Source: Candidatus Kuenenia stuttgartensis (GTDB lineage Bacteria > Planctomycetota > Planctomycetia > Isosphaerales > Isosphaeraceae). From it: DNA of 64,000 nucleotides. How positions within the stretch are numbered: the stretch's first letter is position 1; every line of letters begins with the position of its first letter. The stretch spans positions 1 to 64,000 of the forward strand of contig CAMBEP010000006.1 in assembly GCA_945865635.1 (NCBI GenBank). Reading direction: 5' to 3'. A model generated the notes under the pieces. That model did not search any database. It was not told where the DNA came from and saw only the letters and a program-made list of their open reading frames with translations. A program made the position numbers and the translations under genes. Below, piece after piece: positions 14,579-20,344 of the stretch.

Positions 14579-15100
14579 ATGCGATTTGTACTGATAGATC
14601 GAATTCAGGAAATCGTTCCTGGCCAGAGCCTTACGGCGGTGAAGAATCTTTCGCTGGCTGAAGAATATTTGGCGGACCATTTTCCGGGATTTCCGGTGAT
14701 GCCAGGTGTGTTGATGCTTGAGGCGATGACACAGTCGGCAGCTTGGCTGGTTCGGGCGACGGAAGACTTCAAGCACAGCGTGATACTTTTGAAGTCTGCC
14801 AAGATGATCAAGTATGGGAGTTTTGTGGAGCCTGGGCGTCAGCTTTCGGTGCATGTGGAGTTGGCAGGCCCGGTGACCGATCCGCTCAATATCCCGATGA
14901 AGGGTAAGGGCGTGATTGATGGTCAGGTGATGGTTCAGGGCAAATTCAGCCTGATATGTACGAATCTTCGAGACCGCGACCCACAACTGGCATCGACCGA
15001 TGCGGCGCTGGTAGAGCATCTGAGGGAGCTATACTCAACCCTTGTCATGGGTTCAGTGGCATCCAAGGCGCGTGACAAAGCCGCAGCGGAAGCGATTTGA
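14579..15100 (+). CDS. FabZ-like 3-hydroxyacyl-ACP dehydratase, first of two
   Basis: A 173-residue hotdog-fold protein. FabZ removes water from 3-hydroxyacyl-ACP to give enoyl-ACP. The catalytic pair is intact: H34 in ADHFPGFPVMPG and E48 in MLEAMTQ, with FabZ spacing. The beginning MRFVLIDRIQEI matches the FabZ start (xLLVDRVLEL). It is about 25 residues longer than usual FabZ, with an Ala/Lys-rich C-terminal tail (SVASKARDKAAAEAI). It opens a six-gene cluster and is a clear paralogue of the protein at 15863-16363, with H34 and E48 at the same positions in both. Separate retention of two copies suggests different chain substrates or a heteromer. Confidence 0.92.
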   Translation: MRFVLIDRIQEIVPGQSLTAVKNLSLAEEYLADHFPGFPVMPGVLMLEAMTQSAAWLVRATEDFKHSVILLKSAKMIKYGSFVEPGRQLSVHVELAGPVTDPLNIPMKGKGVIDGQVMVQGKFSLICTNLRDRDPQLASTDAALVEHLRELYSTLVMGSVASKARDKAAAEAI

Positions 15101-15321: not shown

Positions 15322-15711
15322 ATGGCGACACAGGAAGAAATCTTCAAGAAAGTTCAATCCACATTGGTTGATGCCCTTGGTGTCGACGAAGAGCAAGTGG
15401 AGCCGGGCGCAACCCTGCAAGGCGATCTTGAGGCAGAATCGATCGACTTTTTGGACATCGTGTTTCGCTTGGAGCGAAATTTTGGGATCACGATTCCACG
15501 TGGCGAACTTTTTCCTGAGAATCTGACGAGCGACCCGAGTTTGATCTCGGACGGCATGCTGACACCAAAGGGTATTGAAGAATTGGCTGAGCGCATGCCT
15601 TATGCGGACATGACAGAATTCGCGAAGAATCCTGAAGTGGATCGTATCGGCGATTTGTACACAGTGGACATGCTGGTTCGGTATGTCGCGAGCAAGCTTG
15701 CTTCGAAGTGA
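15322..15711 (+). CDS. Acyl carrier protein with an internal insertion
   Basis: A 129-residue carrier protein; usual ACPs have about 80 residues. The phosphopantetheine site is S40 in EAESIDFLDIVFRLE, with Glu-Ser-Ile in place of the common Asp-Ser-Leu. Helix I (EEIFKKVQSTLVDALGV) and helix II (SIDFLDIVFRLERNF) look normal. The helix III equivalent (IGDLYTVDMLVRYVASKL) comes only after about 45 extra residues that include ENLTSDPSLISDGMLTPKGI and LAERMPYADM. The ATG at 15322 follows GAGAGGTG; the frame is open further upstream but through the tRNA-like segment, so I reject that. It would carry the growing acyl chain for the flanking dehydratases and ketosynthases. Confidence 0.93.
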   Translation: MATQEEIFKKVQSTLVDALGVDEEQVEPGATLQGDLEAESIDFLDIVFRLERNFGITIPRGELFPENLTSDPSLISDGMLTPKGIEELAERMPYADMTEFAKNPEVDRIGDLYTVDMLVRYVASKLASK

Positions 15712-15862: not shown

Positions 15863-16363
15863 ATGCGTTGGATCTGGATCGACAAATTCCTCGAATTCCG
15901 AAGTGGGGATTTCGCACGGGCTGTCAAAAACCTGACGCTTGCTGAAGAGCATCTTCACGATCATTATCCTGGTTTCCCAGTGATGCCTGCCTCTCTGATA
16001 ATTGAGGGGATGGCGCAGACGGGCGGGATTTTAGTGGGCGAGGCCAAGAACTTTGAAGAGAAGGTGGTTCTTGCCAAGATTCCGAAAGCGGAATTTTATG
16101 GAGTTGCCTGTGCTGGCGACCAACTGATTTATGATGTCAAGGTGCTTGATCTTCGTGCTGAAGGCGCGGTGGTTGCATGCAAGGCGTTTGTAAACGGGCT
16201 GGAAACGTTGCTTGCAGATGTCGAGATTGTGTTTGCACATCTGGATAACTCCCGTGCCAATCAACTTTTTGGTCCTAAGAATTTTGTCTTTACCCGACAA
16301 CTTCTTGGTGTGCTTGACCTGGCCAAGGCCCAGCAGGCTTCACTGGCTGAACCCGCGAACTGA
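15863..16363 (+). CDS. FabZ-like 3-hydroxyacyl-ACP dehydratase, second of two
   Basis: A 166-residue hotdog dehydratase paralogous to the protein at 14579-15100. H34 (HDHYPGFPVMPA) and E48 (IIEGMAQTGG) are kept at identical positions, and VKNLTLAEEHL matches VKNLSLAEEYL in the first copy. Differences are the Trp-rich start (MRWIWIDKFLEF) and the shorter tail (about residues 135-166). The start at 15863 follows a GGAG 11-12 bases upstream. It sits between the carrier protein and the ketosynthase-like gene in the same orientation. Confidence 0.9.
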   Translation: MRWIWIDKFLEFRSGDFARAVKNLTLAEEHLHDHYPGFPVMPASLIIEGMAQTGGILVGEAKNFEEKVVLAKIPKAEFYGVACAGDQLIYDVKVLDLRAEGAVVACKAFVNGLETLLADVEIVFAHLDNSRANQLFGPKNFVFTRQLLGVLDLAKAQQASLAEPAN

Positions 16364-16465: not shown

Positions 16466-17785
16466 ATGAATGCGACCGCTTCACGAGTTGTCATTACGGG
16501 CTTGGGTGTGAGTTGCCCGATGGCCACGGGGCAAGCGGAATTGACCACGGCTTTACGTGAGGGACGAAGCGGCATAGCTCAAATCGAGAGCTTTCCGGTG
16601 CCCGCCCTTGTGACTCCGGCTGTTGGTGAAATTCGTGGCTTTGACCCCAAGAATTACGTCATTCCGCGCCTCAAGAAGACGCTTGCCAAGAGCCTGAAGT
16701 ATATGGCTCGTGATATCCAGTTGGCTGTTGCCATGGCTCAGGTTGCGCTTCAGGACGCTGGTCTTGCCGATGGTGGAGTGGATCCGACCCGGATCGGCCT
16801 CGACCTTGGTGCTGGGATCATTTCTACAGATCTCCAAGAGCTTTCGCCAGCGATCGAGCGATCTTACGACAAAGGCGACAAGTTTCATTACCGGATTTGG
16901 GGTCAGGAAGGCATCAAGCTGGTGCAGCCAATTTGGCTCCTGAAATATTTGCCCAACATGCTTGCCTGCCACATTTCGATTCTTTCGGATTGTCAAGGGC
17001 CATCCAACACAATTACGGAAGGCGATGCGTCCTCCGGTCTGGCGATTGGTGAGGCATTTCGTATTCTCCAGCGAAATCGTGCGGATGTCATGATTTCAGG
17101 CGGTGCAGATTCGAAGATTCACCCGCTGAGCTACGTTCGTGCCTATTTATTGGGTTTGATTACGAAGTGGCGGGGTGATACGACACAGGCCTCCAGGCCG
17201 TTTGACAGCCAGTCGACAGGTCTTGTGCTGGGCGAAGGTTCGGGCATTGTGATCATGGAGCGGTTATTGCATGCGGAATCTCGTAGTGCACGGATTTATG
17301 GCGAGGTGATTGGAATCGGCTCTGGCTCCGATGCCAGAATGATTGGCGATGAGCTGACCGGGCTCGGGGTGGAGATCGCCCTTCGAACCGCACTTGTTGA
17401 TGCTGGATTGACTGCTGAAGACAAGTCGATCAGCCACATTCATGCACACGGAATTGGCGTGCCCATGCTTGACAGGGCGGAAGCCTCTGCCATTGGCAAG
17501 GTTTTTGTCAATCGGCCCGGCATTCGTGTGACCAGTATCAAGGGTGGTACAGGCAACATGGGTGCTGGCAACGGTGGAGTCGAGGTGATTGCCAACCTGC
17601 TTGCCATGCGGGATGGATTTATCCCTCCGACAATTCATTGTGATTCGCCCGTTTCGGAATACGGCTTGAATCTCGTCAGAGAACTGAATGTACCTGTCGA
17701 GGGCGACATTTTCATCAGCCTGAATCTGACCCGATATGGTCAGGCGTCGTGCGTGATCGTTCGGGCCTGGCCTAAGGCGAGTTAA
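16466..17785 (+). CDS. Ketosynthase-like protein without Cys nucleophile (KS-beta/chain-length-factor-like)
   Basis: A 439-residue FabF-fold protein. The start (ASRVVITGLGVSCPMATG) and the late GGADSKIHPLSY, SRPFDSQSTGLVLGEGSGIVIME segments are typical of KAS II. The active site is altered. The position of the Cys in the ACAT-type nucleophile motif is D187 (TEGDASSGLAIGEA); the first His is kept (H328 in HAHGIG); the second His, normally KSMTGH, is N364 (KGGTGN). It therefore cannot run normal decarboxylative condensation. The known precedent is KS-beta/CLF of type II polyketide synthases, where Cys is replaced (by Gln) and the protein pairs with an active KS. The active KS gene follows directly at 17913. 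Its pairing here is inferred. Confidence 0.93.
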   Translation: MNATASRVVITGLGVSCPMATGQAELTTALREGRSGIAQIESFPVPALVTPAVGEIRGFDPKNYVIPRLKKTLAKSLKYMARDIQLAVAMAQVALQDAGLADGGVDPTRIGLDLGAGIISTDLQELSPAIERSYDKGDKFHYRIWGQEGIKLVQPIWLLKYLPNMLACHISILSDCQGPSNTITEGDASSGLAIGEAFRILQRNRADVMISGGADSKIHPLSYVRAYLLGLITKWRGDTTQASRPFDSQSTGLVLGEGSGIVIMERLLHAESRSARIYGEVIGIGSGSDARMIGDELTGLGVEIALRTALVDAGLTAEDKSISHIHAHGIGVPMLDRAEASAIGKVFVNRPGIRVTSIKGGTGNMGAGNGGVEVIANLLAMRDGFIPPTIHCDSPVSEYGLNLVRELNVPVEGDIFISLNLTRYGQASCVIVRAWPKAS

Positions 17786-17912: not shown

Positions 17913-19202
17913 ATGCGTCGAAGAGTCGTGGTGACAGGCATGGGTATGGTCACTCCCATTGGCAAAGATGTTGAGCAGACATGGAAAGCGCTTCAAGAGG
18001 GGCGTAGCGGGGTTGGCCCGATCACGCTTTTTGAAGCCGATACTTTCCCGACCAGAATTGCGGCCGAGATACATAATTTCGAGCTGAGTGATTATCTTGA
18101 GAACGCAAGCGATTGGCCGGTTTTATCGCGGAATTCGATTTTTGCAGTGGCCGCAGGTCAGATGGCCATGAACGATGCTGGGCTGTCATCGACCGACATG
18201 CCCTTGGACCGATCCCGGATAGGGGTTTATCTTGGTGCAGGTGAGGGCCAGCAGGACTTCCCCCATTTCTGTGCATCCGTGCACAGCGGCACGGTGGATG
18301 ACCAGGTTCAAAAGGACAGGTTTATTCACAACGGAGTGAATATTCTAGAGGCTTGGGCTGAATCCGAGCAGGACCCGGGCACACCGACAGCACATGTGGC
18401 CGCCATGGCCAATGCGCAAGGCCCAAATTACACGTGTCTTACAGCTTGTGCGGCAAGTTCCCAGGCCATTGGTGAGGCACTGGAGCAGATACGTCGCGGC
18501 GACGCCGACATCATTCTCTCAGGCGGAACGCACAGCATGATCCACCCGTTTGGTGTGACGGGATTTATTCTTTTGACGGCCCTTTCGACAAGCAATGCAG
18601 AGCCTCAAAAGGCGAGTCGGCCGTTTGATCGGGATCGCAACGGATTCATTCTGGGGGAAGGTGCGGGGGTTGTGGTGCTTGAAGAACTTGAGCACGCCAA
18701 AGCTCGTGGAGCAAGGATTTATGGCGAATTGATCGGTTATGGTTCCACAGCGGATGCCTTCCGGATCACGGACAGCCATGACGAAGGCCGGGGAGCGATT
18801 GCGTGCTTGAAAGAGGCGTTGGCCGATGCCGGAATTTCGCCCGAAGCGATTCAGTACATCAATGCACACGGCACGAGCACGGAAGTCAACGACAAGATTG
18901 AAACGCTTGCCATCAAAAAGGCTTTGGGCGAAGCGGCTTACAAGATTCCGATATCGAGTACAAAAAGCATGATGGGCCATCTGATTGCGGCCGCTGGGGC
19001 GGTCGAGGCGATCATTTGCCTTTTGGCGATTCGCGACGGGATCATGCCGCCAACGATCAACCTTGATTCTCCGTCTGATGATTGCGATCTGGATTATATT
19101 CCGCATGTGGCTCGCAAGGGGAGAGTGGATGTCGCCCTGTCCAACAGTTTCGGCTTTGGTGGTCAGAATGTGAGTCTGATTCTCAGACGCTATGAGGAAT
19201 GA
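17913..19202 (+). CDS. Active 3-oxoacyl-ACP synthase, KAS II/KS-alpha-like
   Basis: A 429-residue beta-ketoacyl-ACP synthase. The Cys-His-His triad is complete: C179 in CLTACAASSQAIGEA, H319 in NAHGTSTEVND and H356 in KSMMGHLIAAAGAVE. The ATG at 17913 follows GAGGTGA with good spacing; a TTG two codons upstream is less likely. The nucleophile motif with CAASSQAIGE resembles KS-alpha enzymes of type II systems as well as FabF. It would condense malonyl-ACP with the growing chain and probably forms a dimer with the Cys-less protein encoded just upstream (127-bp gap). Confidence 0.95.
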   Translation: MRRRVVVTGMGMVTPIGKDVEQTWKALQEGRSGVGPITLFEADTFPTRIAAEIHNFELSDYLENASDWPVLSRNSIFAVAAGQMAMNDAGLSSTDMPLDRSRIGVYLGAGEGQQDFPHFCASVHSGTVDDQVQKDRFIHNGVNILEAWAESEQDPGTPTAHVAAMANAQGPNYTCLTACAASSQAIGEALEQIRRGDADIILSGGTHSMIHPFGVTGFILLTALSTSNAEPQKASRPFDRDRNGFILGEGAGVVVLEELEHAKARGARIYGELIGYGSTADAFRITDSHDEGRGAIACLKEALADAGISPEAIQYINAHGTSTEVNDKIETLAIKKALGEAAYKIPISSTKSMMGHLIAAAGAVEAIICLLAIRDGIMPPTINLDSPSDDCDLDYIPHVARKGRVDVALSNSFGFGGQNVSLILRRYEE

Positions 19203-19300: not shown

Positions 19301-20344
19301 GTGGATTTAAAGCTGTTTGCCGAGATCCTGCTTGGCCTGCTCCTGATGGCCGTTCTTTTTGGAGTTTGGTGCGACCAGCGCTATAGTCGTCGTATCCTTT
19401 TGCCTAAAATCTCTGAGAAGCCAATGTTTATGGCTTTACGAGTGACACCGTGTGAAGATGGGGAGTCTGTCAAGTTCAGCACACGCGATGGCAAACTGCT
19501 GCGAGGCGTTTATGTACGAACAACGGCTCCAAAACGAGCAGGCATCCTGATTTTCAGTCATGAATTTCTGGCGGATCGATGGAGTTTTCAGGTTTACGCA
19601 GAAGGTGTTCGGGAAGCGGGATTTGACATCTTCAGCTTCGACTTTCGCAATCATGGAGAGAGCGACGAAGACCCGACCCACCCAAGCTTGCAGTGGCTGA
19701 CGGACCGGGAATATATGGATCTTGAGGCGGCTCTGGATTATGTTCGCAGTCGCCCGGATCATGACGAAACCGGAGTGGCCCTGTTCGGAGTCAGTCGTGG
19801 CGGGTGTGTCTCTCTGGCCATGGCCGCGAAGCGAACGGATGTATGGGGTGTGATCACGGACAGTGCATTCCCAACGGTTGGCACGCTCGTACCCTACATG
19901 ATTCGTTTTGCCACCCTTTATGTGAAAATGGGCACGATTGTCGAGAAGTTTCCGAGCTTTGTTTTTCGGTTTATCGGGTACAGGGGGATCTCCAAGGCCG
20001 AGAAAAAGTACGGCTGCCGATTCCTCCACCTGGAATCGCTGGTGGGTAAGATTTCGCCACGGCCTTGGCTGGCAATTCATGGTCAGTCTGACAATTACAT
20101 CACAACGGATGTGGCAGAAAGGCTTTTTAATTTGGCTGGTCAGCCCAAAGAGATGTGGGTGGTTTCCAAAGCCAAGCACAACCGATCGCAGCAAATCGAG
20201 CCGGAGGAATATCGGCGTCGGATTACCGAATTTCTTTGCTCAAATGCCCCATCGCGACAGGCTTCGATGACGGATTCAAATTATAAGCGAATGACTCAGC
20301 CTGAGAGTTCCGGCGACCGACTGATACAGACTGCAAATTCATGA
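19301..20344 (+). CDS. Membrane-anchored alpha/beta hydrolase, last gene of the cluster
   Basis: A 347-residue serine hydrolase. One N-terminal TM segment (LFAEILLGLLLMAVLFGVW, residues 4-22) anchors it. The hydrolase domain shows the nucleophile elbow GVSRGG with S165, the oxyanion-side region FSHEFLADRW, FDFRNHGES, the acid in IHGQSDNYI, and the His in SKAKHNRS near residue 290. The start is GTG at 19301 with GGAG nine bases upstream. It is 98 bp after the ketosynthase, same strand. It may release or hydrolyse the acyl product at the membrane, but this is inference; the hydrolase family is broad. Confidence 0.88.
   Translation: MDLKLFAEILLGLLLMAVLFGVWCDQRYSRRILLPKISEKPMFMALRVTPCEDGESVKFSTRDGKLLRGVYVRTTAPKRAGILIFSHEFLADRWSFQVYAEGVREAGFDIFSFDFRNHGESDEDPTHPSLQWLTDREYMDLEAALDYVRSRPDHDETGVALFGVSRGGCVSLAMAAKRTDVWGVITDSAFPTVGTLVPYMIRFATLYVKMGTIVEKFPSFVFRFIGYRGISKAEKKYGCRFLHLESLVGKISPRPWLAIHGQSDNYITTDVAERLFNLAGQPKEMWVVSKAKHNRSQQIEPEEYRRRITEFLCSNAPSRQASMTDSNYKRMTQPESSGDRLIQTANS

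Follow-up and report, generated by a model that had tools for sequence, protein, structure and literature searches.

What is the role of a ketosynthase (KS) in which the catalytic cysteine has been replaced by an acid? This question is raised by a gene in the 64,000-nucleotide stretch of DNA analysed here (the window; contig CAMBEP010000006.1 of assembly GCA_945865635.1, positions 1 to 64,000), in which an uninterrupted open reading frame on the forward strand (16466..17785) encodes a ketosynthase of 439 residues, henceforth KS-D (Pfam PF00109, 3e-34; PF02801, 6e-20). From Pfam matches, alignments, a tree and an AlphaFold2 model, KS-D is predicted to be catalytically inactive, and we consider it likely (probability roughly 0.74) that it is a non-catalytic, chain-length factor (CLF)-like subunit of a heterodimeric KS formed with the product of the adjacent gene, KS-C (17913..19202, +).

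The original prediction, made from the sequence of the window, held that KS-D carries Asp187 in place of the nucleophilic Cys and Asn364 in place of the second active-site His, with the first His and the KS fold motifs retained, and each of these points is borne out. In HMMER alignments to the FabF proteins of Escherichia coli and Thermus thermophilus, and in a multiple alignment, D187, H328 and N364 (codons 17024..17026, 17447..17449 and 17555..17557, all +) fall on FabF Cys163, His303 and His340, giving Asp-His-Asn at the positions of the Cys-His-His triad of FabF/KAS II, with the first catalytic His retained and the second lost. A misalignment of Asp187 with the nucleophile position was rejected on the basis of several alignments, and a sequencing error was likewise rejected because the same GAT codon for Asp187 is found in relatives of 90% (L036) and 77% (L037) identity. 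We additionally identified changes in the gate residue Phe400 (Arg423 in KS-D) and in Phe398 (Leu421), Phe202 (Ala226) and Phe229 (Leu253), and found FabF Lys335 (Lys359 in KS-D) and Glu349 to be preserved. Against the curated TIGR03150 fabF model KS-D scores 266.8 bits, below the cut-off of 493.75. The ratio of nonsynonymous to synonymous substitution rates (dN/dS) between the gene and its close relatives is approximately 0.06, with synonymous divergence (dS) near saturation, indicating that the gene is under purifying selection.

The AlphaFold2 monomer model of KS-D (predicted local distance difference test score 89, predicted template modelling score 0.91) has a normal KS fold, in keeping with the Pfam matches, and its closest matches in the PDB are FabF structures. 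Asp187 is modelled in the first turn of a helix (186-202) that in active enzymes carries the Cys, and the preceding loop (169-183) is of low confidence. FabF (KAS II) is thus the nearest protein in the PDB to KS-D in fold and sequence, but differs from it in possessing the nucleophile, the second His and the gate.

We investigated the distribution of such proteins in a scan of approximately 85,000 species genomes and in Planctomycetota genomes, obtaining 145 distinct sequences of a family that we term KS-E; the queries of the scan were exact peptides from KS-D alone, and more distant homologues beyond the phylum may be missed. The catalytic Cys is absent from all 145 sequences. Its position is occupied by Glu in 102, Asp in 38, Ser in three, and Gln and Asn in one each, so that an acid at this site, present in 140 of the 145 distinct homologues, is far beyond chance. 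The original prediction that Asp may mark a separate lineage is supported, with the qualification that Glu is the commoner residue. The first His is kept in 125 members and the Lys359 position in 124; the second is replaced in 125, mostly by Asn, and kept in 20, and the residue-364 position varies widely. The gate and pocket residues F398, F400, F202 and F229 have been lost in most members, with degradation of the gate loop, and a motif W-L-L-K-Y-L-P-N-M is nearly invariant, an LPNM..CH motif being invariant. Rare members with Ser, Asn or Gln in place of the acid were noted at L114 1728-3053, L177 2987-4297, L171 3050-4441 and L186 3051-4358. Nearly all of the named KS-E loci are planctomycete; the sole named matches from elsewhere are clusters in metagenome-assembled genomes titled Actinomycetota or Actinomycetes (L086, L093 and L108), which may be mislabelled, misbinned or transferred.

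The putative partner, KS-C, has Cys/His/His, a GFGG gate, and a TIGR03150 score of 502.8 bits, above the cut-off. Cys-His-His is intact in 103/103 of its relatives, as are Lys335, F202, F229 and D265, and the gate loop is found in all or nearly all. All 103 sequences, KS-C of the window included in this pattern, have Glu at FabF positions 108 and 134 (Ile and Val in the E. coli protein), and KS-E proteins have Trp133 (143/145) and Lys or Arg193 (125/145) at complementary positions. Positions 133/134 of FabF presumably reach the pocket of the neighbouring protomer. Opposed charges of this type would be expected to make a KS-C homodimer less favourable than a mixed pair. FabF position 108 lines the acyl pocket, gate and pocket roles being established for F400, F202, I108 and D265 (PMC7138838, PMC5206705), and Asp113 of Iga11, to which the invariant Glu108 of KS-C might correspond, has been linked to release of the beta-ketoacyl-acyl carrier protein (ACP) (PMC8358021).

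The two families are also distributed together. Among 294 Planctomycetota genomes (best E-value <=1e-110 for the KS-E profile and <=1e-155 for the KS-C profile, counted by hand from tables), 48 contain both, five of them of a Cys type described below, two contain a KS-E match only, one contains KS-C only and 243 contain neither. The two genomes with only a KS-E match are both incomplete and belong to one family, and KS-E and KS-C co-occur also in genomes in which their genes are unlinked. Together, the co-occurrence and the interface residues lend indirect support to a heterodimer.

To place these proteins, we constructed a maximum likelihood tree without the three active-site columns. The acid-type KSs, including the few Ser, Gln and Asn members, form a single clade (bootstrap/Shimodaira-Hasegawa-like approximate likelihood ratio 100/99), the sister of which is a Cys-bearing group (99/95) that includes a paralogue from contig C14 of the window's genome. 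KS-C branches next (98/97), and housekeeping FabF, FabB, NodE-type and actinobacterial KSalpha/KSbeta proteins fall outside this grouping. The acid clade, its Cys-bearing sister, the intact adjacent KS-C and the phylum-wide co-occurrence support the proposal that altered, partner-type KSs form a lineage of their own. The tree disfavours a place for the acid clade among the actinobacterial CLFs, separating the two on branches with bootstraps of 98-100; an approximately unbiased (AU) test of the acid clade joined with actinobacterial KSbeta gave p=0.0746, just short of rejecting that grouping. An origin independent of the actinobacterial CLFs, within Planctomycetota and from FabF-like paralogues, is therefore favoured, not proven. 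The C14 paralogue (L200 8460-9818) is a solitary Cys-bearing KS of the acid family's sister group, and lies outside any fatty-acid cluster.

We identified lineages that may retain earlier stages. In family f20 (L172, L136-L138 and L145) both KSs are Cys-His-His, and the FabZ-ACP-FabZ-KS-KS operon is seen whole in L172; the second KS has Lys108 and Arg or Asn134 instead of the Glu pair, and FabZ2 is without its His segment. A basal form, L064, carries Asp163 and yet retains both His340 and Phe400. The Cys-bearing f20 sisters and the L064 form point to a stepwise transition in which one of two active paralogues was retired, and suggest as the likely sequence of events pairing, then loss of the Cys, then loss of the gate and second His.

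The alignment, conservation, gene order, co-occurrence and tree are direct results of the analysis; we infer for this system heterodimerisation, a loss of catalysis in one subunit, shaping of the acyl tunnel, a role for the acid, and an essential membrane acyl chain as product. KS-C would hold the acyl chain on its Cys, decarboxylate malonyl-ACP by means of its two His and perform the condensation; KS-D would complete the dimer interface and thereby shape the acyl tunnel, no longer needing a nucleophile, second His or gate Phe of its own. Asp187 probably keeps the dead site fixed, charged or hydrogen-bonded with the retained His328 and Lys359. With the dedicated ACP and two FabZ-type dehydratases encoded beside them, the two KSs would form a small type II fatty-acid/polyketide-like module, for which reductase activity would be taken from the housekeeping fatty-acid synthase (FAS). 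A separate housekeeping cluster is present on contig C18 of the same genome (FabF, TIGR03150 631 bits, with FabG-, FabD- and PlsX-like neighbours by eye).

Several observations weigh against this account of KS-D as a CLF-like partner of KS-C. Glu or Asp is strongly preferred to Gln, suggesting that the acid has a role beyond occupying space, and His328 and Lys359, for which a mere scaffold would have no use, are retained in approximately 86% of the family. KS-C is found with no recognisable KS-E in one nearly complete genome (G221). In family f2 both proteins are present and their genes are unlinked, so that the acidic KS does not stand beside KS-C, and in one f2 locus (L206 7069-10361) it lies directly behind acpP-fabF, where its partner could be FabF.

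Other explanations have to be set beside these observations. The frequent retention of the acid, His328 and Lys359, together with the purifying selection, could mean that KS-D is an active enzyme whose chemistry is new and relies on Asp/Glu187 and His328 as a catalytic acid/base pair (for example in a hydratase, a thioesterase or acyl transfer). The changes that we find in the family would not be compatible with a fixed catalytic function: the acid gives way to Ser, Gln or Asn in five members and His328 to Phe, Asn, Gln, Thr, Leu, Ser, Gly or Val in 20, with residue 364 highly variable and Cys-bearing sister proteins occupying the same operon slot, and we regard such an enzyme as unlikely. A decarboxylase of the KSQ type, generating a starter unit from malonyl-ACP with an acid in place of the KSQ Gln, would be in keeping with the polar residue at the Cys position, with the frequent retention of the His303 and Lys335 positions, and with the 20 members that have both His. 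KS enzymes, however, require the second His to decarboxylate malonyl groups, and this residue is lost from KS-D and most of its relatives, Gln is found in one homologue of the 145, and the gate loop is lost; this identity is disfavoured, and we judge it very improbable.

We give a similarly low weight to the proposal that KS-D forms a homodimer with an acyl-binding or regulatory role, or pairs with the housekeeping FabF instead of KS-C. The f2 copies favour it, both the one behind acpP-fabF and another acidic copy that lies beside a phenylacetate-CoA-ligase-like gene; yet KS-E directly adjoins KS-C in most loci and co-occurs with it across the phylum, and FabF-like KSs are also present in genomes without KS-E. 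Finally, differences between members in their active-site residues might be expected of a functionless, degenerate paralogue retained by chance, but this is scarcely credible, and is already contradicted by the low dN/dS, the gene order fixed across classes and the invariant LPNM..CH motif.

For the two FabZ-like 3-hydroxyacyl-ACP dehydratases, we identified one-sided losses of catalytic residues. In FabZ, each active site combines a His and an acid contributed by different protomers. FabZ1 proteins retain His34 in 87/88 sequences (with one gap) and have lost Glu48, replaced by Gln, in 19/88 (nine changes on a quick tree); FabZ2 proteins retain Glu48 in 105/106 (one gap) and have lost His34 in 18/106 (eight changes on a quick tree). 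Because of this shared construction, a FabZ1-FabZ2 heterodimer would, under this pattern of loss, keep one composite site and no more, which suggests that the two form an obligate heterodimer with a single working site. In the window, FabZ1 (14579..15100, +; PF07977, 9.7e-18), a homologue of which occupies the corresponding position in nearly all loci, and FabZ2 (15863..16363, +; PF07977, 4.8e-14) each carry both His34 and Glu48.

We identified KS-E in all 21 Planctomycetia genomes of the phylum sample. In Planctopirus limnophila, a member of this class, all five KS paralogues are essential (PMC10632474), and these presumably include members of the KS-E family, given its presence in all 21 genomes. 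The presence of KS-E in every sampled genome of the class and the essentiality of the P. limnophila KSs point to a core lipid as the product of the module, rather than a secondary metabolite. More tentatively, and at somewhat below even odds, we propose an obligately asymmetric, probably essential lipid-chain module, born within Planctomycetota from duplicated FabF-like genes and independently of the polyketide CLFs, in which both enzyme pairs have been split, one KS remaining catalytic and its acidic twin being retired, one FabZ giving the His and the other the Glu, with the lineages in which both KSs have a Cys as an intermediate stage.

KS/CLF heterodimers are known mainly from secondary metabolism. 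KS-D resembles the KSbeta/CLF of type II polyketide synthases of the actinorhodin type as a predicted inactive partner: the Cys is lost from a full-length KS fold, and the cluster encodes an intact KS and an ACP alongside. The residues differ, in that the three actinobacterial CLFs read have Gln or His at the Cys position, Asp at His303 and Arg at His340, whereas KS-E has Glu or Asp, His and Asn, respectively. The ApeO-ApeC pair of aryl polyene synthesis likewise combines a KS with an inactive partner, two dehydratases (ApeI/ApeP), dedicated ACPs and a FAS-like logic (PMC8358021, PMC8253772), the difference on the side of the window being that KS-D is full length. In cispentacin synthesis, an active KS (AmcF) forms a demonstrated heterodimer with a partner without functional motifs (AmcG), but AmcG is termed a cyclization factor and is without parts of the fold (PMC10698177); KS-D gave no match to the AmcG model, and just a general KS match, below the cut-off, to that of AmcF. 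Planctomycetes are among the 14 phyla in which type II KS-CLF matches were catalogued in 2023 (PMC10132072).

An acid at Cys163 was itself reported in 2009, in two paralogues of Rhodopirellula baltica (Rattray et al. 2009, Table 2; PMC2649909): RB3714/NP_865682, with Asp163-His298-His333, and RB4527/NP_866153, with Glu163-His298-Asn333. This earlier report qualifies the original prediction; we found no description of KS-E as a clade, its pairing with KS-C, the module or the Cys-bearing intermediates in the open-access literature searched. The R. baltica proteins come from the same phylum and have the same Cys163 replacement, the first His kept and the second kept or lost; but in that study they figure as oddities in a comparison with ladderane genes of anammox bacteria, and no partner, clade or heterodimer is proposed. 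The KS-E family shows the same combination of an acid at 163, His298, His or Asn333 and a planctomycete origin, and the two proteins, compared by residue pattern alone, almost certainly belong to it. A link to ladderanes and anammox was rejected, as the acidic R. baltica paralogues are included there for comparison only and the Kuenenia paralogues carry Val, Phe and Ser (PMC2649909).

If our interpretation is correct, this would be a second origin of a KS-CLF pair, within a planctomycete lipid module that is conserved and probably essential, and the surviving intermediates with both Cys would allow a direct test of the route from a FabF homodimer to a KS-CLF heterodimer. The oddities of 2009 would gain a function, attention would be drawn to a core lipid in a phylum with unusual membranes, and the acid at the Cys site would be a simple signature by which to re-annotate KSs misdescribed by a plain FabF label.

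The gene order FabZ1-ACP-FabZ2-KS-E-KS-C is constant in named loci of Isosphaeraceae, Gemmataceae, Phycisphaerae and Sedimentisphaerales (at least two classes). In the window, the first three genes lie upstream of KS-D, and KS-C and an alpha/beta hydrolase lie downstream. The ACP (15322..15711, +; PF00550, 1.5e-8) has 129 residues, some 50 more than E. coli AcpP; cluster ACPs are of approximately 130 residues compared with the usual 78 or so, and have the phosphopantetheine Ser40 (motif ESIDFLD) in 105/106 sequences, and the additional C-terminal half is conserved across classes. The hydrolase (19301..20344, +; PF00561, 1.3e-11), with a hydrophobic stretch at its N-terminus, adjoins the cluster in Planctomycetia and in a small number of other cases, and was not found in most Phycisphaerae loci. 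Inspected by eye for extra pathway genes, the Phycisphaerae clusters had just seryl-tRNA synthetase, Hfl-like and ATP-binding cassette permease-like neighbours. The host genome of the window, which lies on contig C6, is of 5.4 Mb, with Isosphaeraceae such as Singulisphaera and Paludisphaera as its nearest named relatives at the family level. Four records of metagenome-assembled genomes (L036, L038, L039 and L109) are titled Candidatus Kuenenia stuttgartiensis; by genome search the first three belong to the genus of the window, and the titles look wrong.
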